DNA of 64,000 bases from Lineus longissimus (lineage: Eukaryota > Nemertea > Pilidiophora > Heteronemertea > Lineidae): assembly GCF_910592395.1 (NCBI RefSeq), contig NC_088310.1:7325501-7389500 (forward strand), read 5' to 3'. The position numbers and the translations under genes were made by a program. A model generated the notes under the pieces. The model was given only the letters and a program-made list of their open reading frames with translations. It did no database searches and was not told the origin of the DNA. Shown here one piece after another: positions 21,474 through 57,405 of this stretch. Numbering within the stretch: the stretch's first letter is position 1; the number at the start of each line of letters is the position of its first letter.

Positions 21474-21698
21474 TCACTCATAGAAGTCGTCTCGTCTTGA
21501 AAGTGACATCCTTGACGCGCTCGTCACGTCCGAATGTGCCCGTGGGCGCCCACCAGAGTGTGTTCTCGGCCGCCTCCGCATATTTGGTCTAATGAACTCA
21601 CATAGGTTATCCAGCCAAGTCCCCCTGGCCCCTGGGAAAGAGGCGGAATGATTGTCAGTAAGTTCATCACTATTCAGTCGCTCGTCTATACTGTCAAG
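21474..21698 (-). CDS. BAD: BAD-like gene, exon 3 (C-terminal exon and stop)
   Basis: This candidate last coding exon encodes 74 residues then TGA at 21476-21474. It starts after a good acceptor (TCTTTTTCGTTGCAG before 21698). Read in phase 0, as the exon 2 donor requires, it is open to the stop. The product has an acidic linker (LDSIDERLNSDELTD) and then GTWLDNLCEFIRPNMRRR. That segment resembles the C-terminal Trp-rich amphipathic helix of vertebrate BAD: the Trp, the aromatic or hydrophobic positions, and Asn-hydrophobic-x-Arg can be matched. An Arg/Ser-rich tail follows with two further RxRxxS motifs (RPRTHS and RPRAHS, S136 and S144). Base composition is more GC-rich than the flanks. The doubts are the 34-kb distance from exon 2 and the shortness of the similarity. 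A competing terminal exon at 53523-53639 was considered and set aside. Confidence 0.72.
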   Translation of the reverse strand, partial: LDSIDERLNSDELTDNHSASFPGARGTWLDNLCEFIRPNMRRRPRTHSGGRPRAHSDVTSASRMSLSRRDDFYE

Positions 21699-23334
21699 CT
21701 GCAACGAAAAAGACGATCGAGCATTAGAATGAGACTCGACCGCAAATTTGAAAATGTGGTTATCTTGCACTACTGCTCATCTGAAAAAAAAGTAAAGACA
21801 AACCAATGCTGCCTGATAATGACGACAATGCCGCAGCTGAAAATAATTCAAACATTCCTCCCTGCCACTACCTCATAAGCATGCATGATTCAATATCTGT
21901 CCTGTTTTTTCAGAACCAATGACAACAAATTAAATCTCAGAAATTAATTCCACAATCTTTTGTCATGACAAATAGACAATAAACAGTAAACAACCCAAAA
22001 TGCAAATTGAAAAGACTGTGGGCCACTATTTGCCTGTGGGTAGCAAATTATTGACGGTGCGTCTCCATGCAGCAATTTGCAGTGTCGTTCAACCACGCGC
22101 AATGTTTATCTTGTCTGTTTATCATTTTTTGTTGGCGGGCATTTCATGCAAGTAGGCTAATCTGATGAGATTGAGAAGCGTGGACCCTGGAACGTTCAAA
22201 CCCAATCAAGACTTAGGATGACGATGATGCTGCTGAAGTTGTAGGAACCACACAAGTCTTCAGGGCTCTAGCCACAAGGGTATGACACCCATTTTAAGGC
22301 CAATTGGGCAAAAGAGGAAACCACCAGGGCCAATGGCTTTTGGTCATGGCTAAATGTCCAGCCCTGATGATTTCTGTATTCCTCCTTCAGAGTTGAGACC
22401 TTGACTGTAAAGGAAGTCAACGACCTCAATACATGTTGACAATCATCTCGCACGAGAAAACCTTGCTTCTTTTTGCAGACATGTCCGATCATGTCTATTT
22501 TCCATTGAAAATCAATAGTAACGGAGCTATCTCCTCGCATTTCATGCAGGTTTTTGTTGTGCAAGAACGCTTATGCCGCAATAGATAACCTGCGAGGATG
22601 TTTAGGCTGACATTATTGATCAGGGGAAGAACGTGTTTTGCTCATGGCAGATTTGCAAGATTTGAAAATGGGACCGAGATTGGCAGCAGGAGGAAAGAAC
22701 AGTTATATTCTTCAAAAAAATGATAAACGATAACTTGCAAAGAAATGTCATCAGTGATATTATTTAAAGGTTTGAAAATCTATGAAATACACAACCTTAC
22801 TGTTGTAACTTTTCAAATCGCAGTCAATTATTCTATTTTCTTACAGAGCGCTTATACTCCAGGCCAATTGGCAAGACGCCATTTTCAGAAATACTACAAT
22901 CGTCAACACATCTCAGTAGTATTGACGTATTTTACTAAATATACACGATACGCAAAAATGCTGACGAAGTATCGATAAACGAGTGAACATCTTATTACAA
23001 GAGCAAATAAAGGTGATCAGAGCAAGTGAGATAAAAAGCTTTACAAAGTCATTCAAATTGAGAATTTTTGGAATAACAAACACAAAAACGCATTGCCCAC
23101 GCTGCCCTCTGGTTTTGGTCTACATTTTAGCTCCACCCTCCTGGTGTTTGGTGAGACAACCTATCCCTCCAGTTCAGCAATAGTTCCTTAACCTAAACCC
23201 TTTTTGACATGATGGATATCAACCCAACCATCTTATGACACATTGTTCAAAGTTTCACTGGGATATTTATGCCATGCTAATTCCCAGTTTTATTTACAAC
23301 TTGTGTATCATTCATCCCGCTACCCTTGATTTGG

Positions 23335-23382
23335 GTGGACCCCAGATGCTAAATTAATTGATTCGCATCCCCGGGGGTCCAC
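23335..23382. repeat. Hairpin-forming inverted repeat
   Basis: GTGGACCCC at the left pairs with GGGGTCCAC at the right, and inside them GATGC pairs with GCATC around an AT-rich loop. The role is unknown. Confidence 0.6.
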
Positions 23383-24003
23383 AACTCCACAGTCATCACA
23401 TGAGGTCCGCCAATCCAATAGATGAGCCGTCGCTCCATGCCCCGATCGGATCCTGTGACCTTTATGATTAATCATGACGAAGACATCGCGGATTGCACCA
23501 CCATTCGCACGATTGGGTGGAGCCTGAGTGGATATGCGCTCTTACAATCACCGTACTTCCCAACATGGCAGCTTTTCCAGCAATTTAACATCCTCATTGA
23601 GAAAACTAATTTTGCCCTCTTGAATGATTTGAATGAGCAGCTGAGCATATAATAGGAGAGTGAATCTCTCAGCTTGAGAGCACCAATGCCCTTTCAAGAT
23701 TATCTCCCGCAAATACAGGAAACTCCCTATTTTGAAACTATATTCAAGTCACAGCATAACGGCCTTGATAGAGAGGTTCTGATGTATTTCCCATACGATA
23801 GTGAGAAACCACACATGCAAGTTTACCAGTCTATAATTTGCACGACCATAGACAGCAAATGCGACATCATGTGACATCTTCTCGCGTATTTGAGGCCATG
23901 ATTCAGCGGATTACCAGGCCAGAATAGAGTTCAGCCATATTTGCATAAACCATGTAATTAATTCACAATCAGACAATCCGCATTGATCATCTTCCATGGG
24001 AGG

Positions 24004-24222
24004 TCACTTGCGGAAAAAATCGGTAATTGATGCAGCGCATCCAGCCATGTGGTCACTGTTGCTACATAAACATTGCGAGTCCCCGCAGTAGTCTTCTGAT
24101 ACACCTCTAGGTGGCAGGTCAGGTTCAAAATAGTTGCTGTTGTTGTATTTATTGGAAACGAAACCAGGGCTCTCTCCCGGTGGCAAGCGCACAGCAATCT
24201 GTCTATGTGCGTGATTGATTAA
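24004..24222 (-). CDS. Possible exon with Cys-rich segment
   Basis: A 72-codon open frame on the minus strand. It encodes NYFEPDLPPRGVSEDYCG followed by DSQCLCSNSDHMAGCAA, then ends in TGA. The composition is protein-like and Cys is clustered, as in small extracellular modules. The splice signals are weak: an AACAACAG acceptor candidate inside the frame and a GTGACC donor just before the stop. Another frame of similar length overlaps. The function is unknown and it may be chance. Confidence 0.18.
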   Translation of the reverse strand, partial: LINHAHRQIAVRLPPGESPGFVSNKYNNSNYFEPDLPPRGVSEDYCGDSQCLCSNSDHMAGCAASITDFFRK

Positions 24223-24489
24223 ATAGGTTCAGGGAAACTCAAGCTTCGCCGACATGTATGCACTGTCCAATTAACTCAGAATAGCATAGCGATTCGGTGT
24301 TGTGGAGAAAAAAGGACATAATTGGGCAAGCGAAGCATTCTTATGCGTGTGTGATGAAGTAGGGCACTGGCATCTGAACATGTCAAATACAACTAAGCAA
24401 GGAAAATGAAATCGACATTGAGGGTGCAAATGTTTTGATGTTCTGATCGGCCAAGAAACGCTTCAAAAACTAGAAATATTTGTAAGATT

Positions 24490-24905
24490 GACCAGACAAG
24501 AACCAGCCACTGAACATGTAGGTTATTCTCCTTTCCAGACGCAATGTCTCAGCTAACCAAGGACCTGCTGTCCGGCCATTAAACAAACATGATTATTCTC
24601 TTTTCTCAGAGCATTGCCTCCACTCGCTGTTGCTCTGCCCAAAGCTTCAAGCTCCTTGACCGACCAAGAACTCAGTCCAGCTGGCCAAACACGCATGGTT
24701 CTAGGACAGGTCAGTACTTCCAATTGATTGATTCTTTGCCACATGCCATAAGCTTGTTGACCAACAAGAACCAGTTGTCCAGCATACGCATGATCATGTC
24801 AGGTCTGATTCTCTGCCACATGCCAGAAGCTCCTTCCCCAACAAGAACCAGTTGTCCAGCCACTGAACATGCATGGTCACGTCAGGTCAGTGCCATGCAG
24901 AAATC
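24490..24905 (+). repeat. Degenerate tandem repeat, about 90 bp
   Basis: Copies share CCAACAAGAACCAGTTGTCC, CTGCCACATGCCA, and a GCATGGTCACGTCAGGTCAG-like end. The last two copies are the most similar and the earlier ones are diverged. Confidence 0.7.
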
Positions 24906-25409
24906 ATTACAAATCACCCAGCAACCTGATCTGGACTGACCATGTAATTGAAGTCAATTATTAGGCTAACCGCAGGGTGAATTGCATTTCGTCCATCAGA
25001 AAAATATGACAAATGGACTATTTCCTGACAGCGCGCAGGCAGTGGTGAACTGGTGTGGTGAAGCAGCGTACAGGTTTATCGGGAAGTGGTTTGAGAGTGG
25101 TTCTGATTGATAGAGGTTGTAGACAAATAGCCGGATGTACCTAGAGGTAGAGTCCTCGAAAAAATCCTGGTTTCCCTTTTTGAACGTATTTTAACAGATC
25201 CAATTGCCATCACCGAGTGTGATGGGCCGAGTGCGTTGGTAAATCAACGGCAGTTTAGTGAAAATACCAAGTATACAGTCAACACTTGAAACTGATTTGC
25301 CAAAGAAAATACCACATGAGGCTGCCTGCCCTGACCACAATAAACTCCCCTTTTGAACACATGGTTAATGTTATCTCAGAGCTTTATGCTTCTATTCATA
25401 AAATATTAT

Positions 25410-25640
25410 TCTGATGTTGGAATACTGGACAACACAGACCTCAAAACAATTTGCCATGTGTTGAAAATATTGCAGTGGTGAATATCGAGATAAATCAGAG
25501 ACAAAAGTGGTCAGTTCAAAAAACAAAGTTGTTATTGTGATGTTGGAATGCTCGACAACGCGGACCCTGAAACAATTCATCATGCACTGAAAACATTACA
25601 ATGCAATACGAGATAACTCCAAGACAAAGTGGTCATTAAA
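25410..25640 (+). repeat. Two-copy tandem repeat, about 120 bp
   Basis: TGATGTTGGAATACTGGACA with AACAATTTGCCATG, and TGATGTTGGAATGCTCGACA with AACAATTCATCATG. Both continue into a GAGATAA...AGACAAA...GTGGTCA end. Confidence 0.75.
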
Positions 25641-27149
25641 GTGTCTCTAACTCACCAGTATGCAAACATTACTAAACCACATCAGTCATTCGAAAGCGAG
25701 GAAAATCAATTGATCAAACCTTAGATAATAGTTTGATTGATGAGAGTAATTTTTGCCTCACTACAATGTTATGGTATGCGAGGCAGCAAAAGCTCCGGGC
25801 TGCTGATGGTCATGCATTATACATTATCCAGGGTCAATTGAGCAGCAGTAAGAATGGCTAAAGGGATCCGCATTAACCCTTCAAAGCCAAGTGACAAATT
25901 TTTTAATGTCACATCGGTTAATTTAGTCATACAACTTTGACCATCGCCTTGGACTAGATGGTCAGTTGGTTTCACCACAGCGCAGAATTCACGATGATCA
26001 AGGGAGAGCTTCCTTACTGGTTGAAAGTTACACCAACTAGCAGCTGCTTCATAGGTTTGATGCTCACATCACTTGAAGACCTTATTCCATCAGATTGTTT
26101 TGAAAGTCCAACCACCCACCAAAACGCCCAATGCCAGGAGTCCAACTTCTAGAACCACCAACCGATAGCAATCAGGTATCTTTCCTCCTTCTCTACCATT
26201 GATCCTATGGATTACAGCGCTGCATGAACACACCATAAAGCCATTTGAATGGAAATTTTCACTTTATTTCTCGACTTTGCCATTTTATTGCCCATAAAAT
26301 GGTTAATGGACACTTTACCGCCAGACAGAATCTAACAGGAGTATAAATATTGGCCGGACATCCATTCACTAGTTTATGGTCCGAGGTGAGGTAAGGTCAA
26401 GCCAGTATCATCTATCATACCTATTCTAATATTGATGGATTTATCAATATCGTCTAGACATTTATAGGTAACTAAGAAACCATGTCCCAAATGGCTTGTG
26501 TTGATAACAATGAAGGATTAGCCTATAACATATGCATGTATTGGTGGAAGTATAAAATAAACAGAGCAGTCAGAACTGTTTTGACCTCATCCGCTAAATA
26601 TACAATATTCAGCAAGTTGTGAAATATTTGGTTTGCAGAAGTATATATATATGAACTTCAAACATCAAACACCAATCGACCTACTTTTGACATTAACTTT
26701 AAAACTTTCTCTGCATTCTAATTAGCCCAATCAAATGGGTTTCTCCCCGGCCACCTTGACGCAATTAACCTTCTCCAAGAATAATGACCATAAACCATGC
26801 AATCGCTGCCGATTCCTTCACTATGATCAATTATATTTATCAAGATGCTCGAGCCTTAATTCAAGGAATATCGTAGTAATTTGATCAATTGCTGATGTGG
26901 TCTGACCAGGCACGCCAGAAGATTGAAGCAGAAAACCATTGCTGCTTCTGCAACGTGAGAAGAAGTAAGCAACAATGGCGGGATATTGCTGTCGGGGATT
27001 AATGCAACATGTTAACTCATTGATGGCCAGTTCAGTTTGTTAGTTAGGAATTTAAATTTGATAGTTTCCCATGTACACAACCAACCACACTTTTAAAGAC
27101 AGAAACCTTCACAAAATGAAAAGGCCAGGGGCCATTGCATTCACCATAT

Positions 27150-27175
27150 AGATATTTGGTGGTTAAGAATTCATG
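27150..27175 (+). repeat. Exact 26-bp repeat, copy 1
   Basis: TAGATATTTGGTGGTTAAGA then ATTCAT; identical to 32744-32769, with no similarity to either side. Confidence 0.8.
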
Positions 27176-27489
27176 CTCTATAGTATAGAGCCAAATGCAA
27201 ATAGAGCAAGATGCAAAAACCTTGATGGTCAAGATGCAATAATGATGACATATTCCTCCTTTAACAAAACTAATCTAATTATCATCCATGACAAGTAGTT
27301 TTATTAAAAGAAGAAAGGCATTGTAAGGACAGGAATTAAAATAGTGGCATGGCTAGCTTGACACCAGGACAATGGACACTGGACAATGGACAAGGGATTA
27401 GATTAGATTCAACAATACAGTCATCAGGACATACCTTGATGAATAAAAGGCTAAGAGGGTCAAATGATTATTAGCTCAACCAGTTTTCT

Positions 27490-27505
27490 GGGGGGGGGGG
27501 GGGGG
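27490..27505 (+). repeat. G homopolymer, 16 bp
   Basis: Sixteen consecutive G. Prone to sequencing or assembly error. Confidence 0.9.
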
Positions 27506-28095
27506 TTGGTCACGGTCATGACTTAATTAGCAGAACCACTTCTAACTGCTCTGTGCATTTGGAATCAGACAGAACACAGCTTGTGCCTGGGCTGAGGTGT
27601 GTCTAAAATGGTGAGTGTCTCACATTATGAGCTACAAGATCACATTTATGTCAAACATTTGAGATTTATTTGAAGTAGAAGTGTAATCATGTAGCAATGA
27701 CAGGAACCCAAACTGGATTTCAACACTTGAATATTTCTGTTCCCTTCTCAAATTTTTACTTTCAGTTGATCATCGACGAGAGAGATGTCAGTCCAGTGGT
27801 CAGCTGTACAAGAGGAGCAAGTATAATTTCTCTTCTATCAAGATGTCTTTCAGTCTATTCTGTCTCTTACCGATTGAGCTAAAACTGCTTACAACAAACC
27901 AAGATGCCTTTTTACCATATTTCCATGAAGTCTGAAGTGGTAGTTGAAGTGATAGTCGACAGCGATCATATAGCCAAGCACACACCAAGTTCCGAGTCTA
28001 GTAACTTCCTTATTTGGAAACCTTATTCCTGATTTAGAAATTTCAAGACATAATAGTTGCCTGGTCTCTGCTAGAGCATGATTTAATACAGTCCA

Positions 28096-28392
28096 TATCA
28101 ATGTTTTTAATGGTCAGTATTCTGGTCAGAATATGTATACTATGCTTTGGTGTGCCATGTGACACAGGTGATCAGGTTTTAATTGTCTGATCAGAGCAGT
28201 TCTCTAATAGAGGAGATAGTGAGTCGAATGTGGTGCCGCCATCTGACACAGGAAACCCTGCCGCAATCCTCTGGGCCAGACTGGCAACCAGAGCAGTTCT
28301 CTAATAGAGCAGATAGTGAGTCGAATGTGGTTTCAATGTCTGATACAGGAATTGCAGCCGCAATCCTCTGATCAGAACAGATTATGCTTTTG
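28096..28392 (+). repeat. 1,075-bp array, copy 0 (shortened)
   Basis: First unit of the array, about 300 bp, from ATCAATGTTTTTAATGG to the CAGATTATGCTTTTG word. It then jumps to GGTCTTTGACGGGCC, lacking about 740 bp present in later units. It contains the 97-bp internal duplication (GTTCTCTAATAGAG at 28199 and 28296). Confidence 0.85.
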
Positions 28393-28398
28393 ATAGCG

Positions 28399-29473
28399 GT
28401 CTTTGACGGGCCTAGGCACTTTGAATCTTTATCAATGTTTTTAATGGTCAGTATTCCGGTCAGAATATGTATGCTATGCTTTGGTTTGCCATCTGACACG
28501 AGTGATCAGGTTTTAATCGTCTGATCAGAGTATAGTTCTCTAATAGAGCAGATAGTGAGTCGAATGTGGTTCCGCCATCTGACACAGGAAACGCAGCCGC
28601 AATCCTCTGGGCCAGTCTGGCAACCAGAGCAGTTCTCTAATAGAGCAGATAGTGAGTCGAATGTGGTTTCACCGTCTCATACAGGAAACGCAGCCGCAAT
28701 CCTCTGATCAGAACAGATTATGCTTTTGTCCACTGCATAACGTCCAGACACAGGACAGCCTAGGTCTTTCTTGTGGTAGGGATACCAAGGTGTTGGGGCA
28801 TATTCAAGGAGAGGAAGGACTCTCTTGTCGTTGTTGACTTAAGATCGATGCGAGTCTTACTGTATGTTTCTGCAGAGGAAACCCGTGGTCTTGGTAATTT
28901 TGGGATATACCTTATACATCCTATCTTTAACTTTTTATGAACTGCCAAAAGTGATTCGTTCTCATTCTATTGTTTTTATCGGCCTCATCCTTCATCGGTG
29001 TGTAATATGACATAAATTTTGTCATATTTTCTTGATGGGATATATTTCAAATGATGTTATAAATCAATCAATATGGCAACCACTATTCTCGCCTGTTGTG
29101 TCCCACCGACTGTAACTAGCTAAAGAGGGAGGTAAGCTGTTATGGATGTCAGATAGTGGTCTTCCTGGCATTTGCTTGCAATTTTTGTTGACATTCCACC
29201 ACAATCTCAAGGACCTGGCTTTATCTAATGATACGTTCGCACGGGGGGAGTGGGGGAAGGGTGGAAGAGCCAGTCACCCCCGTGGGAATTATGATTCCCG
29301 AAAGGATGTCTATGGAAAGGGTGAGCATTTGTTAGCCAATAAAGACAAGATTTTAATCCCTCAGCTTCTTTTAGGCATTTGGAGAGACTTCTTGTCTAAA
29401 CAGTACCATTTCGCCACCTCTAAGGCATACAATGGTAACTTATAAACACAAGACTTTGATCCTTGTCTTGGAG
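28399..29473 (+). repeat. 1,075-bp array, copy 1
   Basis: Full unit starting at GTCTTTGACGGGCC. It carries two 97-bp internal copies (GTTCTC at 28535 and 28632), an AT-rich middle with a TATGACA/TGTCATA palindrome, and a GC-rich hairpin pair (CACGGGGG...CCCCCGTG and GGGAATTATGATTCCC). A 99-codon frame (29146-29445) is truncated by a stop in copy 2, which argues against a conserved protein. Confidence 0.9.
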
Positions 29474-30549
29474 GTCTTTGACGGGCCTAGGCACTTCGAA
29501 TCTTTATCAATGTTTTTAATGGTCAGTATTCTGGTCAGAATATGTATGCTATGCTTTGGTTTGCCATCTGACACGAGTGATCAGGTTTTAATCGTCTGAT
29601 CAGAGTATAGTTCTCTAATAGAGCAGATAGTGAGTCGAATGTGGTTCCGCCATCTGACACAGGAAACCCAGCCGCAATCCTCTGGGCCAGTCTGGCAACC
29701 AGAGCAGTTCTCTAATAGAGCAGATAGTGAGTCGAATGTGGTTTCACCGTCTGATACAGGAAACGCAGCCGCAATCCTCTGATCAGAACAGATTATGCTT
29801 TTCTCCACTGCATAACGTCCAGACACAGGACAGCCCAGGTCTTTCTTGTGGTAGGGATACCAAGGTGTTGGGGCATATTCACGGAGAGGAAGGACTCTCT
29901 TGTCGTTGTTGACTTAAGATCGATGCGAGTCTTTACTGTATGTTTCTGCAGAGGAAACCCGTGGTCTTGGTAATTTTGGGATATACCTTATACATCCTAT
30001 CTTTAACTTTTTATGAACTGCCAAAAGTGATTCGTTCGTGCTCTATAGTTTTTATCAGCCTCATCCTTCATCGGTGTGTAATATGACATAAATTTTGTCA
30101 TATTTTCTTGATGGGATATATTTCAAATGATGTTATAAATCAATCAATATGGCAACCACTATTCTCGCCTGTTGTGTCCCACCGACTGTAACTGGCTAAA
30201 GAGGGAGGTAAGCTGTTATGGATGTCAGATAGTGGTCTCCCTGGCATTTGCTTGCGATTTTTGTTGACATTCCACCACGATCTCAAGGACCTGGCTTTAT
30301 CTAATGATACGTTCGCACGGGGGGAGTGGGGGAAGGGTGGAAGAGCCAGTCACCCCCGTGGGAATTATGATTCCCGAAAGGATGTCTATGGAAAGGGTGA
30401 GCATTTGTTAGCCAATAAAGACAAGATTTTAATCCCTCAGCTTCTTTGAGGCATTTGGAGAGACTTCTTGTCTAAACAGAACCATTTCGCCACCTCTAAG
30501 GCATACAATGGTAACTTATAAACACAAGATTTTGATCCTTGTCTTGGAG
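29474..30549 (+). repeat. 1,075-bp array, copy 2
   Basis: Nearly identical to copy 1 over its whole length, with scattered single-base differences and one extra base. The close identity indicates recent duplication or ongoing homogenisation. Confidence 0.9.
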
Positions 30550-31160
30550 ATCTTTGACGGGCTTAGGCACTTCAAATCTTTATCAGTGTTTTTAATGGTC
30601 AGTATTCTGGTCAGAATATGTATGCTATGCTTTGGTTTGCCATCTGACACGAGTGATCAGGTTTTAATCGTCTGATCAGAGTATAGTTCTCTAATAGAGC
30701 AGATAGTGAGTCGAATGTGGTTCCGCCATCTGACACAGGAAACCCAGCCGCAATCCTCTGGGACAGTCTGGCAACCAGAGCAGTTCTCTAATAGAGCAGA
30801 TAGTGAGTCGAATGTGGTTTCACCGTCTGATACAGGAAACGCAGCCGCAATCCTCTGATCAGAACAGATTATGCTTTTCTCCACTGCATAACGTCCAGAC
30901 ACAGGACAGCCTAGGTCTTTCTTGTGGTAGGGATACCAAGGTGTTGTAGCGTATTCTACTAGGAGAAGAAGGACTCTCTTGTAATTGTTGACTTAAGATT
31001 GATGCAAGTTTTACTGTATATTTCTGCAGAGGAAACCCATGGTCTCTGCTTGTGATGTAATTTATGTAATTTAACTAGGTTAGGTTCGGGTTGATATCTG
31101 CTCCAAGGTATTTTGCACTTTATACGTACTGTCTATAAGATTGTCAGGACTTGGTAATTT
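30550..31160 (+). repeat. 1,075-bp array, copy 3 (truncated)
   Basis: Collinear with copies 1 and 2 to about 31045 and more diverged from 30945 on. A stretch of about 100 bp with no match then precedes CTTGGTAATTTTGGGGAT at 31150, after which similarity is lost. Confidence 0.8.
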
Positions 31161-31339
31161 TGGGGATGGAACTCCATGTCCCACTTGATCACCCACTGTC
31201 CCAGTTATTCGCAGGATCGATACGGTATGGCCGCAATCAGTAGTGTGACATCAGAGGGACTAAAATGAGTTCAGGTGTTGATTGCGCAAGAAATCGCGTT
31301 GCCTATCAACCAACCGGCCTGGGCACTTCATATCTGGCC

Positions 31340-32536: not shown

Positions 32537-32743
32537 TGCACGAAGGCTACCATGGAAGGACATAAGAAAGATAAATGATATCGATGGTCACACAGCAAAC
32601 CTGCCCCTGACTTCAGTCACAATGCAGCTGATGGCTTTGTCAATCATTTCAGGCCATTTCAATGCTGCACAAAAACTTTTCAGTGACATTCTTCCAATCT
32701 TTTTCACATTTTTCAGTAATGTATCACAAGTATTTGTATTTCG

Positions 32744-32769
32744 CTAGATATTTGGTGGTTAAGAATTCA
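32744..32769 (+). repeat. Exact 26-bp repeat, copy 2
   Basis: Identical to 27150-27175. It lies at the left edge of the dispersed-repeat cluster that follows. Confidence 0.8.
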
Positions 32770-45600: not shown

Positions 45601-48600
45601 TAGGGCTGTGCTCCCCTTTACCAAATTTCTTGATCCCCACTGTATGGTTTCTTTTTATTCTTTGGGATATCTGTGAGAAAAGCCCAGGAAAATAAACTGC
45701 AATGGTCGCTGGCAAGACTATTCTCACTCTGAGCCTCAGATCATTTGACTAGATACTTACCAATGGGCAAAGAGGGACCATGCAATGGACAATGGTGTGT
45801 GTGGATGGAAAATCCAGGATACAGAGAAGTCTGGCCAAGCAAGATATGGGAGGCAGAATTCAAGATTGACAGATTAGGAAGCTATGTCGACTGGTCAACT
45901 AAAAGTAATTCAAATCAACTTCCCGAATAAGACTTCAACCCCTTCACAAAACAATGTCTATATTACGAGCACACTTTACAAGCATCCAAAAACAATGAAA
46001 GATCCAATGCTTCTTATTGCCAAATTACCTAATTAAAGTAAAGTAATCAAGCCGAAACGATCTGAGTTAATCTAGTTAAATCTAGTTAAAGGATGTGCAT
46101 GCTTAATTAACACAAATGACCATGGCTACCCGCATGATAAATCATCGAGATTTTCAAGTTCAGGTTTCGTTCAGCCATATAGGAAAGGCAAAGCAATCAA
46201 AGAGAGTGAAAACCTGTTCAAGTTATCTGTGCAGTGAGTGCATAATTTCGTTTTTCATATCTTGACTCCTCAGAGGATTATCGTACTTAAATACTAATGG
46301 TCTCAATTTAGCAATAATTTGCAAAGATTTGTTTTGCATAAAGGACAATTTGAAGCATACACGTTAAACTCTTCACCTACCCAGACAGACTCGTCAAGAC
46401 AAAGGGCTAAATGAGATAATAGGGGTATTCAGAGCTTTTATCAATGGTGACACCCTTTATCAGATTTCTTAAGCCCCTTTGAGGCATAACTTAGGCATCA
46501 TCTAGACAAAAGAAAGATGAACTGTTAGAATGAAAACCCTGGCAAAACTCATCTCCAATATCAGAGAAATGTCTTTTTGTCATCAAAGTTTCCAACAACA
46601 TCTACACAGCTTCACAAATTCGACAAGTGAGAATTTTCTTACAGGGGATGTCTTTTTTTAATCATTTCCCTAAATCCTGAATCCACATACGGATTAAGAA
46701 GGTCTCCCTTCCACAGTACAGTCTCACAAGCATTTTTCGTTTTCTTTTTTTCCCAATGTCCTGACGACATAACATGATTTCGAAGGTCTTACTTCTATGG
46801 TATGAGCTTACAAGCAATTAATTCCAAGGAAATGTCTTACTTACCATCAAAAAACAATTATCAACTCATGCCTTAACGTCAAAAACATGGAATAATGTGT
46901 TTTTTCATTCACAATATGATAACACAAGGAACACTTTTTATCACTCACTGATCTACTTACACAGCAAGGTCGCACAATAATTATCTCAAGGTAACACTCT
47001 TTTTTATTCTGATGGCGTCATAACATGGATTAAGAGGATCTCAATTCCACAATATGATGTTACAAGCATTTTGCTTCTAAGGTAACATATTTTTCTCACT
47101 AAGTGCTGTCAGGTAACTTAGTTTTCAGCATCCAGGGTTGCGTGACCTATCAGTCAATACATGCACCTTATCAATATCGACTATTGCTTGCAGTCCTTGC
47201 ATCATTGACTGATGCAGTTCACGTAAATTACTAGCAAAAATCCATATGTGAGTACCTTGATTGTTATGTTAACTGCATAAGGAAATAAAGAAGGTATTTT
47301 AAGACATGCTCCAAATCCATCAGGATGATATTTTGAAGGTCAGTTGTGAGCAATTGGGTACCATTTACAACATATTTTTGAAACTGCGCACGTACAGATT
47401 ACCCAGGCTCTTTAAAGGCCAGCGCCGTTTGTTAAAAATTTGAAATTTGAAATTGTATTTGAAATTTTCCAATTGCATAAATACTGACTGAATATAAATT
47501 TCAGCATTGCTGTTGTGTCGACAGAAATACAAATACTATACAAATACCAATTTTCACAAAATTCATACGCAAAATAACTGAACTACAGAATTATTATCAA
47601 ACCCCACATGAAACACTTATAAATTCCTTTTGAACGTAAAAATTTATTATATTTCTCATCACAGACAATCAGTGAATAAAGACACCAAACTGTTGATTTA
47701 GAAATATTTAGAGACATAAAATATTTGCAAACATATTATTTTGCAGTTTTGTAAAATTGCAACATTGGCAAACTTTTAATTTAGTGTTTTGACAACCCTG
47801 TACTAGTAACTTCAAAAGTTGTTTTTCCTGCGGCCAGATCTGCATTGATAAGTACACTTGAAAATAAAAGGCACGCAAACATTTACAGCAATAGCAGAAA
47901 ATAGCTTCAAAAAATATTTACTACGCAGTCAAATTGTTGTTAGGCAACCTTTGGAATTTCACCCAAAGATTACATTTATCGATTTATCGTAATGTTACGT
48001 TTTGTTGATTGAGCCCCCGGCTGATTAAAGGTAAAATGTGATATTTCTGGCAGTGACTACGCACGATAGTAACAAGATCCGCAACATAGTGTTATGACGC
48101 TACTATCTATCTATTTTTCATCAGTTCTAGCAGACATTAAAGGAAGATCAACACAACAATCTCAGGGGCTCTGTCCCAGGGTCGTTTGGAAGGGTTGGCA
48201 TCCCTTTAGCAGACCCGAGTATCCGGACACTAATTATAACCAAAATATCAAAATAATCGATATGACATATCCTTGGCATGGTTTATAACCCCGGGGAGGG
48301 TTATTTGGTACAAAGGGGTGCCTCCATCGGAAATGCACACTCATGATTGACGGCATATTATAACATGTCATCAGAGAACAACAACAAAGAGATATCAAAG
48401 TTCAAATTCCTTTATCTTTCTCAGAAATCTATTTTGTTTTTTGCATGTGAAAAATCAAACGATATATGTCGTAATCGAGGTATTTACATTGTATTTCAAT
48501 ATTTTCATTTTGAAAAATTACATTTGGTTTTTCTACACGACTCGGCAGATAGAACTTATCAGGTGAATAGACCAATTTTTCTTGTAGGACCTACGCCAAT

Positions 48601-51600
48601 GTTGTGATGTTTCCTCTCTCACCTCCAAGTGATACATTTTCAATTAAGTAGTATAACGCAAGATAAAACAGCCATAAATTCGATATCCCTTTTTGCAGCA
48701 ACAAAACGTTTCTCACCCAAATCAAAGATGCATAAGAGTAGTACGTCCTGCTGTTCTGCTGATCACTTGAAACTGATGCTAGCAAAAGGTGCAACCTGGG
48801 CAAAGAGGCGATAAGCAGTTAGGAAAGAAGATACCAGTGCCCCAGGAATTCTAGGAAACTATTGACTATAACAGCCATAGTATTTTGAGCCCGACTTTTT
48901 CTCGTCCATCTATAATGATACATATCATAATGACCTCGGCTCTTTGCCAAGTACATAGTACGATTATTGCAAAATTAATGAGTCACCTAAATGGGAAATG
49001 CTCTAACAGGAAATGTTAAAGTTCCTGAACGCATTCCAACAGCAGTGCTTGTCTGGACAGCGGTAATGAGACAATGATTACACATGTAGCAGCGTTCATT
49101 AAATAGTGATTAGTGATAAACGTTCAAATCGATGATTACTACTTAAGCATGCAGAATAAAAACATGGTGTTATTGATGCAAACATTGACATGTTTTGCAT
49201 GTATGTGTGTTTAGCATGTTTGGAGCAATCAAAATGAGACGACATTGGAATATTCTGCAGCCTAGCAGCATGAAGCAGCTAACTCAAATAGCTAGTGACC
49301 TTGACCTTGGCCAGTGCCAACAAGAAGAATAGCCTATGCAATACCTTGGTTTCTTTGGAGGGGCATCTCTTGGTCACTACATCATTTCCTCTCAATCATT
49401 GTCATCACATCTCCAAAGTTCCTCAGGGGCATCTAATCCACAGACCCTGGCAGTGTGCTGTTATGATGCAAGACCATCTATTTGTATTCAGCGCATTCAC
49501 TCGGCCTTCCACTAGCTTAGCATGACCTTCATTAACACATTTATCGCTTCCTCCTTCATTTACTGCTTCCTTGCAGACAGTCCATGTTTGCTTGATCAGA
49601 TTACCAAAATATGCATAGAGCAGTGCCAGTGGCCTTGAGAAACGAACTACCCAGTCATCAGCGGAAACTTCAAATCAAAAGGCAATTTTTGGTAGAGCGA
49701 CATGATCAAAGAATGACCTTGTTCGATGCTTGATTGCAGAAAGCATTATAGGATTCCTTGATTATGCACATAATACTTCAACGACCTTGTGCAGGAAAAA
49801 ACGTGAATCAGCCCGCCTCAAATAACTTTTTTCTGCATTCAGAACATGCTAGTCGCCTAAATTAGCATCCAGTGCGCAATCCTATGTTAATTGGGAAAGA
49901 TGCCGAGTTAATTGCCCGGAATTACTTCCATCGGTTTCGAACAGAATGCACTCGTTCGATTGGCTGAGACCCTTCGCAACCCTGGATGCGTATTTATGCA
50001 TCGTAATGATCGCGGAAAAGTGATCTCGCCGTCAACATAATTACAGATTACCGCTATATGGATTTCCCTTATCATTGGTAATGAATAAGGAAATGATGTC
50101 ATTTGCTTGGTGAAAGACAGAGTGGACCCTGGATAAACGCCTCGGATGGTGATATTTATAGACCACCTCGTTGATTACTCGATACCAATTCTTGAGTTTG
50201 CAATCCAACAAACCAAGGCTGCCAAAGTCAACAAGAAATTGCATCTTGTTTAACTGATCAATTTTGATGCGATAAGATCTCAAGAGTATGGCACGGTTCT
50301 TCTCTTTGGTGATACGAAGAGAAATGATATAAGCTAGAAAAGTTATCGAGCATAACCTAGCTGGTCAATGTCACAAAGTCAATGGGTGAGCCGATGACAA
50401 AATGTCAATCTCTACTTTACCACTGTTTATGATAAACAACAGGGTCAGGATAGGTTATAACCTTTGCTACCCCAACAGGGAGCTCATCACAAAACACAGA
50501 AACAAGCTCCCAATATCTGCACGTGCAATAACGCACAACTTTAAACGAAATGAGATTTGCCTCAAAAAGAAAGCCTGGCATCATCCAGGGTAATTCGTCT
50601 TCATGCTCAGATGTGCCAGATGAGGCTTACAGGATTGGAACTAATCCCAAAGGAATCTCAACCACGGAAAAGTGAAACTGTGAGCCTTTTTTGTCATTTC
50701 ATCTTGCTTGCAATTTGCCAAGCACTGGTATCTGACTGCATTTGTATCACTGAAAAGCAACATGTAGCAAATTCAAGGCATTAAATTCTCCTTATGCCTA
50801 ATTAGTTCTTCATTTCTTTTGCAGCAGCTGGGCAGAAACATTAGGAAAAGATAAAATATCTTTACAGAGGGAACATCCTGAAGGTGGCAAAATGAATTAT
50901 AACAATCATAGCCCAGGGGGTTGATAGAGATGGACCTAAGTGTCAAATACCAAGAAGAAGACAACTATAGCATTTTCGAAAAATTCGTTTTTCATCAAAC
51001 ATGTCAAAACGTGGAAAGGGATACAAAGAACATATGGGAGTACACATGGAGAAGAATTGGCATGCGAGGATTCTGTTCTGAATAACAACGTTTGAGTAAC
51101 ATGCAGAATTATAAGAAAACATGCATTTCAAGCCGTGAAATCTTTACAATTGTATCCGCTGAAACTGAAACTATAAAGGAAACATGCGGAGAGAGTTCAG
51201 GACACATCCACCTCTTGATTTCTGCCAAGAGAGCCATTTTGACCATCACCAGAGTCAGCCCAACAGACCAGGAGTTTACTCAAAGGCCAAGTTCTTTGGT
51301 TTCAGTTTTGGTGACCTTTCCATAATTGCTATGCAGAAATTTACATTTATATCCTTAAACTCAAATTCAAGTCAGTCGCTCGATGTTGGCGATTACGACA
51401 TCAGTATCCAACGAGTCACCGCCCATCAATCTTCGTGGATGTAAAAGGAGTCGAGAAGCTACCCGATTCTAATCCTAAATCTGCCACAATCTGATTTATA
51501 GCGTGAAAGAACATTCAAAACTACCTGGTGCGTATTCGAAATTAGAAATGCACCGTTAGGTTTTAACGGTACGACCAATTTCGTCATCACCAGCAACAGC

Positions 51601-53681
51601 AGCCTGAATACTGAATACAAATTGAAATTCTGTGATGAATTGTCCTTTTACATAAACACAGATAACATATTAGTCCAAATAGATGGCTGTATATTTCCCA
51701 TTTTCAAGGTCAGGCTGATAAATCAGTTTAGGATGGCTAAAGTACATTATTGGCATTAACGGCCAACCTGCCGATAACAGATATTAACGAAGAAATTTGT
51801 CATCGCCAAGTAAACGAGATAAACGAACACCCACCGCACTAATCTGAATAATTTAAAATATAATACACTCTGAATCAACAAGAAGGCTTCCATCTGTACT
51901 TTAGAGTAACTGCATGGACCATCAGTGAAGCATCATTAAGTAGTATAAAGGTAAACCTATGCCTATTTTCTAAGAATCATGAACGTTAACATCAAACCAA
52001 CTTTGTATTAATGACGGTGCCCCAAGAACAGCCTAATCTGTAACACTGCACCAAGATTTCTTCCCAGATAAAAAGCAGACAGCCATGTTCTATCTGGCAC
52101 GTTATCCTTTAATTCTTTGATGCAACGCACGGCCCGTCTATGTTACCATTTCCAGTTTAAGAGAGCGGCAAGTTTAACTAATGATGCCATCAATCAGGCT
52201 CCGTAGACCTTGATCTTCGCACATCAAACCTTTGTTTACTTTTTCTGAGAGGTTATGGCTTGCGGACATGAGGTTATGGTTGTATTTTCATGTGCTTTCT
52301 TTATTTCTCGGCTTCGATCAAAGACTTATCAAAAATCGGATGGATAATTGAGCAGGATCCTGTAACGTGAGACTCTGAACTCGGGTGAAATATTTTTCAG
52401 ACTTGGGCATCAGATGTTAGCCCACAGGATTATTGAGAGAAAGAAATTAACCCTTGCTGGTGTGGAGTGACAGACAGCTAGAGCATTTGAGAAACCAAAT
52501 GGCATGATACTGTAGTTGAATAAGCCTGATCATGGAAATGTAATGGATGTGCAAGAAAGTGTCACTAACTTTCAAGGAATGAACATGTGATTCTGTAATA
52601 AGCTCAACCAACCACCAGTCATCTTTGTATGACTTACTTCACTTAAACACAAAGCACGAAATTCTGCAAAATTCTCTCCTGTGGCCTTCACATTGCCATC
52701 AACTTGCAATCCATATCATGCATAAAAACCACATTTCCAGATGTCCGGCTAAAAAAACCATAGCTATTCACATGCAGTGTATAAGGCATCCATTTGCCGC
52801 GAAATGCAGAAAATTTGGTCTTAATGACAACGCATTGATTATCTCAGCAGAAATCGATGTAATTGCAAGAAATTGTGTCACAGTATTTCTTATGCTCTAA
52901 TACTGCATCACTTTGGCTGCTACAGGTGGGATCTGGGGGTTTGTAACACTGAGAAGGCAATTCTAGGCGAGAGACACCTGTGACTTAATGAGAACTTTTC
53001 TTCAAGCATGTGGTGAGTGGTTTGGCAATAAAGGGCGTGGAAAAGAACTTCTTCTAGAGAGTGCTACTATAGCTGCTCATTCATTATTCATTCTCAAACG
53101 TTGCTCTCCAGCGATTACATGGGCTTGCAAAGCGAAATCTCAATGCACTGAAGGCAGATCTCCTTTCGACAAAACTGGATACAAAGTGCATTTTACAGTT
53201 GTCATCAATACACAACAGAAACAAGGTGGGCAACTTCACTGTTGTGCTGGAGACTAGCCATCAACCATCAACAAGTGTAATAGTTTTGTTTGGTCTCATA
53301 AATGGAATAAATTTGGCTTTTTTCATTTATTCACTCAAACTAATACATCCCCAATATAAATGCTGAAACTGAAAATACCAGACTGAAAATGTCATCGTGC
53401 AAAGATATCAACCATCAAGGTCTAGGTAAGAATTCAAACAGGAGGTAAAAGACATTAGGACAGACTCCACAACACGGCATTATTCGAGTATTCAGACTTA
53501 CCCAGCCTAAGGTTTTGACCCCCTAAAGTGGTACTAGTGTAAGAAGAAAGAGGGAGTTCAGAAATAATATCAAAGAATTTTTAAACTTAATGTCTATTTT
53601 GATCATTTTGCAATAGTTTGACATGCATGATGAGGCAAGCTGTAATAGAAGTTCAGTAGAGCTGCCCCCATTAAAAACAAT
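42656..53681. other. No gene recognised
   Basis: Mostly AT-rich. A minus frame at about 44354-44680 and plus frames at 43765-44004 and 51184-51444 are protein-like in places but match no family I know. The C17 run lies at 44155. Confidence 0.4.
44155..44171 (+). repeat. C homopolymer, 17 bp
   Basis: Seventeen consecutive C, followed by GCCACTAAACACG. The length is likely unreliable in assembly. Confidence 0.9.
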
Positions 53682-53978
53682 GAGAAAGTCATGTATTGAC
53701 TCCCGCAAGCAACAGAGAAAGTCATGTATAATCTACCGTAGGAAACTGAGAAAGTCATGTATTGTGCACGGCACGAAAGTGATAAAGTCATGTATTGTTC
53801 ACCGCAAGAAACCGAGAAAGTCATGTATTGTGTATGGTATGAAAGTGATAAAGTCATGTATTGTTCACCGCAAGAAACCGAGAAAGTCATGTATTGTGTA
53901 TGGTATGAAAGGGATAAAGTCATGTGTTGTTCACCACAAGAAACCGAGAAAGTCATGTATTGTCCACCACAAGAATAC
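53682..53978 (+). repeat. 33-bp minisatellite, nine copies
   Basis: Exactly nine 33-bp units, each starting GAGAAAGTCATG or GATAAAGTCATG, ending at 53978. From the fourth unit two types alternate, giving a 66-bp higher-order period. Because 33 is a multiple of 3, three frames stay open (up to 144 codons on the minus strand). All are repetitive and none is accepted as a gene. Confidence 0.92.
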
Positions 53979-56070
53979 TTGTGGTAACCCTCAATGTGGA
54001 AAGTCAGAATAAACGTAATGTCTGCTCGAAGGGTCATTCAGCCATTCATACTAAAACCCTAGTTTAAATCAACATTGACAATCTTTCAGCCACTTCATGG
54101 TATTTTCTCCATTCCCTAGGAAGGCGACACCAACATCTTGACAGCCAGATTGCAAACTCGTAACAGCGTCAAATCTAAATATACATCAAGTGTGAAGGCA
54201 TGTCAATTACGTCAATCAATTATGTATAGATACGTTTTTGATTTTTCCATTCGCTCCTCTGGGATTTTTTAGTAAACACTGATTTGCCGCTATTAAACGT
54301 AATGTCAGACTCGAACATGACATATCACAAAGGAGAAAGTTTGCTTGGGGACTTCTCACAGTTATTTAATGCATTATCTGATTAATAGGTAGCGCTGGGC
54401 AAATATGATTTGTTCACGTCGATACATCCCATGGGCGCTTTTGCGTAGATGCTTTCCCTTCATGGTCGATTTGTAAGGCAGATTGGCTGCGTCTTTTCCC
54501 AGAAGCAATCAATTCACAGGTTTTATTTGACTCAGAATCGGAGGCCTGGGGAAAATGGTCAAAGACGGACAAGAATACTGAAAAGAACTGTAATACGATG
54601 GCAGCAGGGGACAGAATTGCACAATTTCATGCCATGTCAGATGTTCAGACTGAAAACCAGGGCGGCATGCAAGTGTGTGTTTCAGCCATGGTTGACCCAA
54701 AATGCAGTTGGTTATGGGTTGACGATAATACCGCCATTCTTGCAAATCTTGAAATCTTAAAGCAATCTGAACTTCTTCAAAATGAAGTGAATGCCCATCT
54801 AAAACCAAGGGGCTATTCTCTGGAAAACTAAGAACAGACTGCCACCCTTGAAATTGGCATTCACTTGTTATGAAGGAGTTCTGGTTGCTTTAGGATTTCA
54901 AGTTCAGGCCAAAATAGTCGTACCTATATGGTCAACCCTTAATTTAAAGCTTAATCAGCTAAAATATTTCACTTGGAATTATAATAGAAACTATCTGATG
55001 GCAAAGGGCTTTCTCACATAAAACAGTGTTCAAGCTAAGCTGTTTTACAGCAAGTACTTTTGACAGAATCCTCACAGCACAACAGTTTACCCATGATATC
55101 ATGAGACAAATTTTCCTGTATTCAACAAAAGCAATGCAGCATGGCCAAATCCTGCCTTATACAGGAAAACATGTTTTTACAAGAGATTGAGTTTCAGGAC
55201 GAACAGAAATTTTGATCGCAGATGAAATATAAAGGTGGCATTCATCATCTGACCTACTTAAGAAATTGCTGCTCACTTTTTGGTTCTTGATTGAATTGTC
55301 ACAAGAACCATCTTTGAGGCGACTCATCAGTGTGACACAAAGTGTGGCGGCCAGTTAACTGCCTGATATAAATGGCTGGGGGAAAACGCATTCTTTGAGT
55401 CATCACAGAACCAGTCCCCAAATCTCCAATGTGTCCTTTTCATGCTCGATGAACTGGCTTGTCACACAAGAGTGGACACTGTTGAGGTCGGGGCAATATC
55501 CATTTCATGCGGTCCAGCTTCCAATATTTGGTTTTCACAGTGACTTGCCCGGTGATTGGATTATGAGGACAGGAGATTTAGAAATGGGAAAATAAATGGA
55601 CAAACCGTCCATGCGGATAACAAGTCTCCTCATGAATGTAAGACATTTTCATATGCTCCTAATTTCTTTAGGAGATTTTTACACATCCCTTCACAAGTTG
55701 GAATCATTTTTTAAGAAACATCTTTCTAACAAATTAGCATGAAATGGGATTACAAACTGGTGATCAGTTACACAAATAGATGCAATATCTCATGAAATGA
55801 TGAGAGAAACAGAGTAATGTTTTATGCAAACATCTTTTATGATACATCCTTTATGATACCAGCACTTTTTGTCAACCTCAATGCCAAAATAATTGCACTT
55901 GACATTTTCCACAGGAAGATTTAATGTGAGATTTGACAAAAGTAGAGATATTCGTCATTTTTGCTTGATTGTAAATGAAGTTTTTAAGCAAACACTTTTT
56001 TCTTCATCAGAGACAGTTTTGGGACATCCTGTAGGTTATCGGCGCTTCACCAATGAAAACCTTTACTCAC
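53979..56070. other. No gene recognised
   Basis: A 77-codon plus frame from a well-placed ATG (54598-54831) overlaps two other open frames and is unassigned. Confidence 0.4.
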
Positions 56071-56291
56071 CAGTCTGCTGCTTTCAGTAGGTGAATACGA
56101 TAGGTGGAATTCGTCACTAATCCGTCGCAGCTCCCGCGCAAACTGTCCCACTTCCTGTCGCAGAAGCGGCTGCACGGCCGACTCGGACCGCGTTCGGTCG
56201 CGGCGGAACTGGATGAGATCTGGCAGAGGTTCGTGACTAATTCGGACCTCATCGCTGTCAGAGTAGCACCGTAATCTCTCTACAGCCGTCC
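56071..56291 (-). CDS. BAD: BAD-like BH3-only apoptosis regulator, exon 2 (BH3 exon)
   Basis: This internal coding exon encodes 73 residues plus the end of a split Gly codon. It is bounded by a strong acceptor (CTCTTTCCAG before 56291) and a consensus donor (GTGAGT after 56071, leaving phase 0). The frame is open throughout. The BH3 domain reads FARELRRISDEFHLSY and fits h1-x3-h2-x2-h3-S-D-x-h4 with F65, L69, I72, S73, D74 and F76 of the predicted protein. Vertebrate BAD has the near-identical core RELRRMSDEF. Upstream lie RLRCYS (S25) and RTRSES (S52), both RxRxxS Akt-type motifs. The S25-S52-S73 spacing (27 and 21 residues) resembles mouse S112-S136-S155 (24 and 19). In vertebrates BAD neutralises BCL-XL and BCL-2 at mitochondria unless it is phosphorylated and held by 14-3-3. 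BIM is the main alternative, but the RRxS serine and paired upstream sites favour BAD. Open frames in the other frames here are shadows. Confidence 0.9.
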
Positions 56292-57362
56292 CTGGAAAGA
56301 GTCAGAAAGCATCTTATAAATCAAGTGCACCAACAAAGGATTCGTAATGACTCTTTCATCGCTGTTTTCTGCTGAATCATCAAATTTGCTGCGGATGAGA
56401 AAACGTGGTGGTGAAACAAAACAGATAAACAGTAATGCAATTCAGGATGATAACCGGGTGGAATGACCTGTAATAACGAAAAAAATCATCCATTTCCAAG
56501 TCGCTAGTAATCAATATCTCCCTGAGCTGACATCCAAGAGTGTGTTTCAGGTCCTGTAACTTCCTTCATGCTGGGGAGGGGGGAGCTTTTGTTCAAAACA
56601 AGAGCGGTAATGAAATAAATAGCTGATTATTTAACAACATCTTGAAGAGTGAATCGAGTCATAAAATTCTAAATAACTGTCTCTAAAATTATAGGAGAAT
56701 GGTATAATTTCTGTACTCGATGATGCAACACAGAATAGCAAAGCAACAAATAAAGTACATCTGGATTAATTCCTATAACCTCTGTCATGTTGATGAAAAT
56801 TTATGCCCCTGCATCAGCAACTGGTGTCCAGTCATGCACAAAGATAACAGCCTTACCATCAATTGTAAGATTGGTAGCCATTAGCAAGCTTTATTCGCCA
56901 GCAGGATTTACGACATCACTATTTATTGCACGTGACTGAATTTTGTTGGGAGCGCTACTGCCCCACTGCCCTGGTACTGCTCTGGAACTGCCCAGGTAGG
57001 TACCACTGCCGTGGTAGATTCTACTGCTCCCTCCGTAGGTATTCAGAAAGTTGGCAGCATACTCCCTGAAGAAGACGACGGGCCACCGTGATGCAGTTCT
57101 TGAAACATAATGAAATTACCACCAGCAATTTTCGACACAAACTCTGCACACCACCCAAGATGTAACCGACGAAAACAACAGTAAGGTGAATCAGATTCAA
57201 AGTCCCTGTTTCAACAACTCTGAACACATATTTCTAAAAGCTTCCTTTAAACATGTCCTTCTCAAATTCTCCAACCCATAAATTTTCAACATCAACATTG
57301 AAAACATAATGATTTATTCAAAGTTGAAGGTTTAGAACTGACAACATTGAAATGAAATGCAC
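56292..57362 (-). other. BAD-like gene, intron 1
   Basis: This 1,071-bp intron is inferred between exon 1 (phase 1 exit) and exon 2. Its 3' end is a clear CTCTTTCCAG acceptor. A short tandem-like stretch of CTGCCCTGGTAC-type words lies at 56950-57030. An open frame of 68 codons inside it (57021-57227) shows nothing protein-like. Confidence 0.5.
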
Positions 57363-57405
57363 CTTCAGGGATGCTGAAGTCCCAGCTTGCCGGCTGCTGT
57401 GCCAT
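57363..57405 (-). CDS. BAD: BAD-like gene, exon 1 (start codon)
   Basis: This candidate first coding exon runs from ATG at 57405-57403 to a GT at 57362-57361. It encodes MAQQPASWDFSIPE and leaves one base of a Gly codon. Exon 2 supplies exactly the two missing bases, so the reading frame continues. The FSIPE stretch resembles the FQIPE near the N-terminus of vertebrate BAD. The donor (GAAG|GTGCAT) is weak beyond the first three intron bases. A pyrimidine-rich run ends in GCACAG at 57397, so the region could instead be a 34-bp internal exon (57363-57396) spliced in the same frame from an upstream exon. Either choice keeps residues QPASWDFSIPE. With this start the whole protein is 162 residues. 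Confidence 0.55.

Follow-up and report, generated by a model that had tools for sequence, protein, structure and literature searches.

The locus and its gene

The stretch of DNA analysed here (the window, 64 kb in length) is from the ribbon worm Lineus longissimus (Nemertea), C3:7325501-7389500; the assembly searched contains 391,118,348 bases. On its minus strand the window carries two coding exons of LOC135485624 (P0005), an uncharacterised deposited model of 423 residues whose product includes a BCL-2 homology 3 (BH3) region. This gene is real, but to call it BAD would be too simple. Since this one ribbon-worm protein carries control sites that mammals divide between BAD and BIM, its sequence suggests that BAD and BIM both descend from one ancient animal gene.

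An earlier note on this DNA had described a three-exon BAD orthologue of 162 residues. The second and third of its exons, 56291-56071 and 21698-21474 on the minus strand, are exactly those of LOC135485624 and encode residues 276-349 and 350-423 of P0005 with 100% identity. Their splice signals are as clean as the note had claimed: AG and GT are present at the borders (ttccag/GG, CTG/gtgagt and ttgcag/CT, where the slash marks the exon border), the phases join and a stop codon lies at the end. The BH3 core FARELRRISDEF is found in exon 2, which indeed has no in-frame ATG, and the BH3 pattern used occurs only once across the six frames of the window. The 162 residues can be reproduced in frame if the first exon of the note (57405-57363) is included, and this 162-residue query matches P0005 in a protein search with 100% identity over 91% of its length. 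It is this first exon that does not agree with the deposited model, which instead begins with an 826-base coding exon at C3:7481345-7480520, approximately 99 kb upstream and beyond the window, and whose product is accordingly 423 rather than 162 residues long.

The far-upstream exon ends in a donor (CGAG/gtagga) with a phase shared with exon 2 and, when spliced to exons 2 and 3 of the window, gives P0005 letter for letter; residues 1-275 of P0005 have no match within the window. A search of the whole genome with P0005 finds this gene only, its three matches being to its own three exons. Two introns of about 99 kb and 34 kb bring the coding part of the gene to about 134 kb. The 34-kb intron is credible because a protein from another nemertean, Tubulanus (P0001), aligns contiguously across the join between exons 2 and 3 (38 of 69 aligned residues are identical in exon 2 and 21 of 58 in exon 3). 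The features of the gene in the window are listed below; conservation refers to the protein family described in the next section, and pLDDT is the predicted local distance difference test score.

56071..56291, minus strand: coding exon 2, residues 276-349 of P0005, with both Akt-type sites, LPD and the BH3; phase 1 in, phase 0 out
56260..56277, minus strand: site A, RLRCYS, residues 281-286 (RxRxxS); R281, R283 and S286 at least 90% conserved in 22 sequences
56215..56229, minus strand: PLPDL motif, residues 297-301; L298, P299 and D300 invariant in 22 sequences
56185..56202, minus strand: site B, RDRTRS, residues 306-311; R306, R308 and S311 invariant in 22 sequences; aligns with RGRSRSAP of BAD in the profile-profile comparison
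56095..56142, minus strand: BH3 region FARELRRISDEFHLSY, residues 326-341, which includes site C, RRIS (331-334); pattern in 31 of 31 family proteins
21474..21698, minus strand: coding exon 3, residues 350-423 and stop; 100% identical to P0005 and contiguous with exon 2 in Tubulanus P0001
21603..21656, minus strand: conserved C-terminal block DNHSASFPGARGTWLDNL, residues 364-381; DNQSSSYPGARRNWIQTL in Tubulanus, with SSFP kept in Lingula, Mercenaria and Gigantopelta
21579..21623, minus strand: predicted C-terminal helix, residues 375-389 (AlphaFold2, block means of pLDDT 67 and 73)
57363..57405, minus strand: first exon of the earlier note, MAQQPASWDFSIPEG; in phase, with no counterpart in P0005

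A conserved family of BH3-only proteins

A single-sequence search provides four matches, the best of which is to Tubulanus (E 8e-18). A profile of the query and these matches gives at least 30 matches at E ≤1 among the 7,995 candidates scored (those sharing most words). The family analysed contains 31 proteins, including Lineus itself and P0001, which was obtained from the single-sequence search only. Its 19 named members are from nemerteans, molluscs (Gigantopelta, Batillaria, Pomacea, Potamilus and Mercenaria), the brachiopod Lingula, hemichordates, echinoderms and amphioxus. The homologues in related species that the earlier note had called for exist, in Tubulanus, in molluscs and in a brachiopod; the gene is a conserved lophotrochozoan BH3-only gene, as the note had proposed, and is common to other bilaterians too.

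The conservation alignment includes 22 of the 31 proteins. LPD (298-300), R306, R308, S311 and, within the BH3, L330, R331, R332, I333, D335 and E336 are invariant, while R281, R283 and S286 are nearly so (at least 90%). Outside the BH3, the strictest conservation concerns LPD and a basic-directed kinase site with its serine 19 residues before the BH3 leucine. LPD[LIV] occurs in 30 of the 31 family proteins, and the order and spacing of the motifs are kept from nemerteans to amphioxus.

Motifs shared with BAD, BIM and BMF

For comparison we used a vertebrate panel consisting of the best 120 of 965 matches (9 BAD, 93 BIM and 18 BMF). Two of the 93 BIM sequences (P0049 and P0094), in which no BH3 was recognised, were dropped from the motif counts, and two BIM sequences without a recognised BH3 also from the masked hidden Markov model (HMM) run described below.

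The BAD-type features are the kinase-site contexts. Site B (RxRxxS before the BH3) is present in 30 of 31 family proteins (a fragment of 64 residues lacks it) and in all nine BADs, and is found in none of 91 BIMs or 18 BMFs; in shuffled flanks it arises in 3.0% of family trials. RR[IM]S has the same distribution (30/31 family, 9/9 BAD, 0/91 BIM and 0/18 BMF), and its serine occupies what we take, from the alignment, to be the position of BAD Ser155 inside the BH3. From its sequence context, site B is the counterpart of the BAD Ser136 14-3-3 site. Site A is a proposed counterpart of the Ser112 site, by order and motif and without a significant alignment. The passages cited from PMC1368972 describe mammalian BAD as phosphorylated at Ser112, Ser136 and Ser155, with Ser112 and Ser136 in potential 14-3-3 motifs; Ser136 is given as the main site for 14-3-3, and BCL-XL binding is suggested to require Ser155. 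The tail of the Lineus protein includes two further RxRxxS sites (RPRTHS and RPRAHS, residues 392-405, 21531-21572); no RxRxxS is found after the BH3 in Tubulanus.

The BIM- and BMF-type features lie in the N-terminal part. A TQT motif N-terminal of the BH3 is present in every one of the 18 family proteins that reach 240 residues, and the 13 shorter models all lack it. In the panel it is absent from all nine BADs and present in all 91 BIMs with a recognised BH3 and all 18 BMFs, so that the amniote BADs carry the RxRxxS site only, and the BIMs and BMFs TQT only. In P0005 it occurs as TSTQTP (residues 210-215), encoded in the far-upstream first exon, and this putative light-chain motif aligns by profile to the TQTP of BIM; the absence of a light-chain motif that characterises BAD is not observed here. 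P0005 also includes KRDSGYLTD at residues 67-75, with its SGY farther from TQT than in BIM. SGY is found in 11 of the 31 family proteins (11 of the 18 long members) and in 71 of 91 BIMs, and is absent from the hemichordate and amphioxus members. The five echinoderm proteins have SSGYGSA..TQT, six of seven long protostome ones KRDSGY, and human BIM, whose sequence was entered by hand, SSGYFS..STQTP. According to the sections of PMC4695108 used here, BIM binds dynein through DKSTQT, which BimS lacks, and has at Ser93/94/98 a phosphodegron for beta-TrCP that acts with ERK and RSK.

Both types of feature thus occur together. The single protein P0005 holds BAD's three phosphosite contexts (two RxRxxS and an RRxS in the BH3) and the BIM-like TQT and SGY. 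Two hemichordate proteins (P0002 and P0006) have, before the BH3, SEPADVRPEI, similar to AEPADMRPEI of BIM, and in the same stretch RNRSHSEP, similar to RGRSRSAP of BAD.

Profile and Pfam comparisons

An HMM built only from 18 invertebrate members scores the nine BADs at 35.2-45.3 bits, the 93 BIMs at 16.7-48.0 and the 18 BMFs at 6.6-14.8. Among the controls, PUMA reaches 12.3 bits and BIK, HRK, NOXA and BID do not exceed 0.7. With a model of the core region alone, the scores are 38.9-42.1 bits for BAD, 24.8-37.8 for BIM (92 scored) and 10.4-17.7 for BMF. In a further run the BH3 was masked in the BAD, BIM and BMF rows only, with the controls (PUMA, BIK, HRK, NOXA and BID) left unmasked; BIM then scores up to 19.0 bits (median 11.7), the highest of 1,750 scored shuffles being 9.1.

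Profile-profile alignment with hhalign was performed on hand-chosen subsets (14 of 31 family proteins, 6 of 9 BADs, 13 of 93 BIMs, from which P0049 was then dropped, and 7 of 18 BMFs). The family aligns to BAD with an E value of 9e-9, to BIM with 1e-10 and to BMF with 1e-3; the corresponding values are 4e-4 for BAD and BIM, 3e-3 for BIM and BMF and 0.33 for BAD and BMF. Each of BAD and BIM is thus closer in profile to the family than to the other. The same holds N-terminal of the BH3: the alignment of the family with BAD falls at site B (E 0.0085) and that with BIM at TQT (0.0015), compared with 0.27 for BAD and BIM.

At E ≤1 the Pfam BAD model (PF10514) is found in 21 of the 22 members, Lineus not being among those matched, and Bclx_interact in 20 of 22. 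PF10514 exceeds its cut-off (28.2 bits) in P0002 (29.7 bits) and P0022 (29.2 bits). The 162-residue Lineus piece scores 17.2 bits with PF10514 and better with Bclx_interact; P0005 itself is matched at E ≤1 by Bclx_interact alone, with no match to PF10514 or to the Pfam BMF model (PF15185).

Proximity to PLC-beta genes

A scan of the genome for phospholipase C (PLC) catalytic domains identifies two loci on C3, at 6.40 and 6.47 Mb, which lie 0.87-0.95 Mb from the BH3 gene. At both, exons about 1 kb further on have PLC-beta as their best match; the best matches of the five other PLC loci are gamma, delta, epsilon, gamma and zeta. A scan with PF08703 (PLC-beta) matched nothing anywhere, controls included, and is hence uninformative. 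From the sequence sizes, a distance of within 1 Mb corresponds to about 0.5% of the genome, and C3 to about 7.4%. Proximity to PLC-beta had been predicted before the result of the scan, and linkage was examined in Lineus alone. In the mouse, Bmf (118.354 Mb), Bub1b (118.424) and Plcb2 (118.533) lie within 0.18 Mb on chromosome 2 (as given in part of PMC3435402), and in humans BAD is found together with PLCB3 at 11q13 (from an excerpt of PMC3299192). The arrangement in Lineus echoes, and fits with, this mammalian linkage of Bmf to Plcb2 and of BAD to PLCB3.

Possible alternative first exons and short models

We examined candidates for a first exon (ATG to GT, phase 1) in the 7.7 kb upstream of exon 2, using a simple donor score out of 7. 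Exon 57405-57363, alone among the 135 candidates, combines a length of 14 codons or more with a donor score of 5 or more. It does not match the first 36 residues of the Tubulanus protein (blastp-short). It may be an alternative first exon, absent from the deposited model and supported by nothing tested. In Pomacea a short model (P0017, isoform X2) reads ESG/SAVRRLRYYS where the long gastropod models P0011 and P0013 read ARG/SAVRRLRYYS, and this switch falls on the codon at which exons 1 and 2 join in Lineus. The short models of Pomacea (P0017), Gigantopelta (P0008) and Tubulanus (P0001), which are without the TQT part, are possibly conserved short isoforms like BimS, as judged from their sequences.

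About 400 bases upstream of this exon lies a near-perfect inverted repeat (57795-57988) with arms of about 80 nucleotides and 23 nucleotides between the innermost arms. It folds at -97.1 kcal/mol as DNA (z -26) and is a candidate foldback element or source of a hairpin RNA.

Identity of the gene

We think it likely, from these sequence comparisons, that this is a BH3-only pro-death gene co-orthologous with vertebrate BAD and BIM, and possibly BMF, in a family of lophotrochozoans and invertebrate deuterostomes. The Lineus gene is most likely an undivided gene of the ancestral type of BAD and BIM, the place of BMF being uncertain. A number of observations weigh against this. The panel consists of closely related sequences, from mammals and a few lizards and without fish, shark or lamprey, and its counts are therefore not independent. 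Core motifs were partly included in the profile used to find the family and their presence in the matches is therefore partly selected, although TQT lies far from this core; short motifs can, in addition, converge. At position +2 of site B, Lineus has S where most members have P. The core-region model also recognises PUMA (17.8 bits), NOXA (7.2) and HRK (3.7), and BMF is not set apart from PUMA because its best score is 17.7. With the BH3 masked, BAD shows no gain over shuffles (best 5.8 versus 6.8 bits) and BMF no clear separation from them (3.9 versus 3.2), nor does the BMF N-terminus show any gain (5.4 versus 5.6). C-terminal of the BH3, hhalign finds nothing significant (E 0.041 with BAD and 0.67 with BIM). 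The Lineus protein is above the Pfam cut-off for neither BAD nor Bclx_interact, and PF15185 matches only 2 of 22 members at E ≤1. The PLC locus at C8:2.58 Mb is assigned only narrowly to delta over beta (58.3 versus 56.7 bits). Finally, in a tree of the BH3 region (29 sequences) BAD, BIM and BMF each cohere, but the invertebrate proteins fall in a polytomy with BAD and BIM, and 14 of 26 inner branches are open. This tree neither supports a placement with BAD only nor proves co-orthology; since it is polytomous, the basis for orthology is motifs, profiles and one linkage.

The earlier note had seen a BAD orthologue, for which co-orthologue of BAD and BIM is the better description. The BAD-type features that it named hold: RELRRISDEF, two RxRxxS before the BH3 and an RRxS inside it are all present. 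A strict BAD orthologue, with BIM and BMF of separate origin, would be in keeping with these three sites, with the RELRR[IM]SDEF core and with the PF10514 matches in 21 of 22 members at E ≤1, but we regard it as unlikely given that TQT occurs in every long member and in no BAD, that the profile match to BIM is no weaker than that to BAD, that Bclx_interact fits the Lineus sequence better and that the hemichordate ADVRPEI resembles ADMRPEI of BIM; nor does the polytomous tree place the invertebrate proteins with BAD rather than with BIM, as the note would have it. Equally improbable is the opposite view, that this is an orthologue of BIM which acquired its phosphorylation sites independently of BAD. 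TQT, SGY, the best profile E value and the higher Bclx_interact score on the Lineus sequence all speak for BIM, but site B is invariant in 22 sequences and is the very place where the BH3-free part aligns to BAD, all 91 BIMs are without it, RR[IM]S is shared by 30 of 31 family proteins and all nine BADs, and the linkage of BAD to PLCB3 points to a tie with BAD as well as with BIM.

More remote still is convergence, that is, a disordered protein with a BH3 but no orthology to the vertebrate BH3-only genes. In its favour, a BH3 is a short motif, said to arise also in proteins that are unrelated, and the other signals are short linear motifs too; convergence is difficult to reconcile with an order and spacing of motifs kept from nemerteans to amphioxus, with PLC-beta nearby and with profile E values of 1e-10 and 9e-9. 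That the exons are a chance string and not a gene has a negligible probability: the introns are large and exon 57405-57363 is absent from the deposited model, but the model itself exists and has homologues. For exons 2 and 3 this is ruled out by P0005 and Tubulanus P0001.

If the Lineus gene is indeed of the undivided type, two textbook control routes of mammalian cell death began as one protein, and their separation could be tested as a division of labour after gene duplication, with one gene to remove instead of several. A wider scenario, which we consider slightly less likely than not, is that the early genome duplications of vertebrates produced BAD, BIM and BMF from one bilaterian gene that integrated growth-factor (14-3-3), cytoskeletal (light-chain) and ERK/beta-TrCP control. 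The undivided gene would have been kept in nemerteans, molluscs, brachiopods, hemichordates, echinoderms and amphioxus, and alternative first exons (exon 57405-57363 in Lineus and isoform X2 in Pomacea) would give short, BimS-like forms that escape light-chain and degron control.

Predicted structure and proposed mechanism

The BH3 (LxxxxD, residues 326-341) is the sole BCL-2 homology region; a Pfam scan of P0005 at E ≤1 gives no BCL-2 core domain. AlphaFold2, run with 22 sequences, gives a mean pLDDT of 52.9 with low confidence outside the BH3. Helices are predicted at 217-231 (just after TQT), 317-340 (the BH3, with block means of 90 at 321-340), 345-358 and 375-389. Apart from the BH3 helix the protein looks disordered, of which low pLDDT is an indirect sign, and the helix at 375-389 is a possible membrane-binding helix.

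We infer a pro-death function from the named vertebrate relatives, and these also provide the proposed mechanism. Survival kinases of the Akt/PKA/RSK type would phosphorylate S311, together with S286 and S334; 14-3-3 would hold the phosphorylated protein and the phosphate in the BH3 would block groove binding. Dynein light chain would tether the protein at TQT, and an ERK/beta-TrCP route would remove it via the SGY region. When survival signals fall, the BH3 helix would enter the groove of pro-survival BCL-2 proteins and free BAX/BAK. In vertebrates these modules would have been split, with 14-3-3 control passing to BAD and light-chain control to BIM (and BMF).

Other features of the window

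The window has 12 stop-to-stop frames of 120 residues or more; Pfam analysis of 10 of them gives nothing above the curated cut-offs, and Rfam (gathering threshold) and tRNA scans of the window also find nothing. A 336-base unit is duplicated in tandem at 28096-28728 (1.9 copies, 93% matches). A 33-base tandem repeat at 53682-53975 (8.9 copies, or 4.3 copies of a higher unit of 66 bases) has open frames on both strands; the minus strand has weak Pfam matches, below cut-off.

Comparison with known systems

As far as the cited passages go, no homologue of BH3-only proteins had been found in bivalves or in any mollusc according to PMC3634015 and PMC5550854, and the relevant part of PMC8917759 (2022) repeats this statement for molluscs/bivalves. 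The portion of PMC8998228 consulted describes 'potential BH3-only' proteins of echinoderms and hemichordates without assigned orthology, and calls such proteins 'potentially present in Lophotrochozoa'. These candidates probably belong to the same family as ours (A. planci P0022 has 345 residues compared with 350 in that paper). Its schistosome BH3-only proteins are lophotrochozoan in the wide sense of the paper and, in the same portion, as seeds found no relatives there. No title or abstract among the open-paper matches listed proposes a common BAD/BIM gene or a lophotrochozoan family (subscription journals and preprints are outside this coverage). The present analysis adds BH3-only members from molluscs, a brachiopod and nemerteans and connects them with BAD and BIM.

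With vertebrate BAD the family shares an RxRxxS immediately N-terminal of the BH3 (the Ser136 position), another RxRxxS farther upstream (8 of 9 BADs) and RELRR[IM]SDEF with its Ser155-type serine. It differs in having TQT, SGY and LPD[LIV], each found in none of the nine BADs, in length (423 residues in Lineus, 168 in human BAD) and in the region C-terminal of the BH3, where there is no significant profile match. With vertebrate BIM (BCL2L11) it has in common TQTP followed by a helix (predicted in Lineus), SGY, ELRRIxDEF, a long disordered N-terminus and, in the two hemichordate members, ADxRPEI before the BH3; BIM differs in carrying RRIG where the family has RRIS, and in the lack of site B in all 91 sequences. 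Vertebrate BMF is also without site B and its similarity is weak (6.6-14.8 bits, about the level of PUMA), but it shares the TQT motif and, in the mouse, is likewise linked to a PLC-beta gene.

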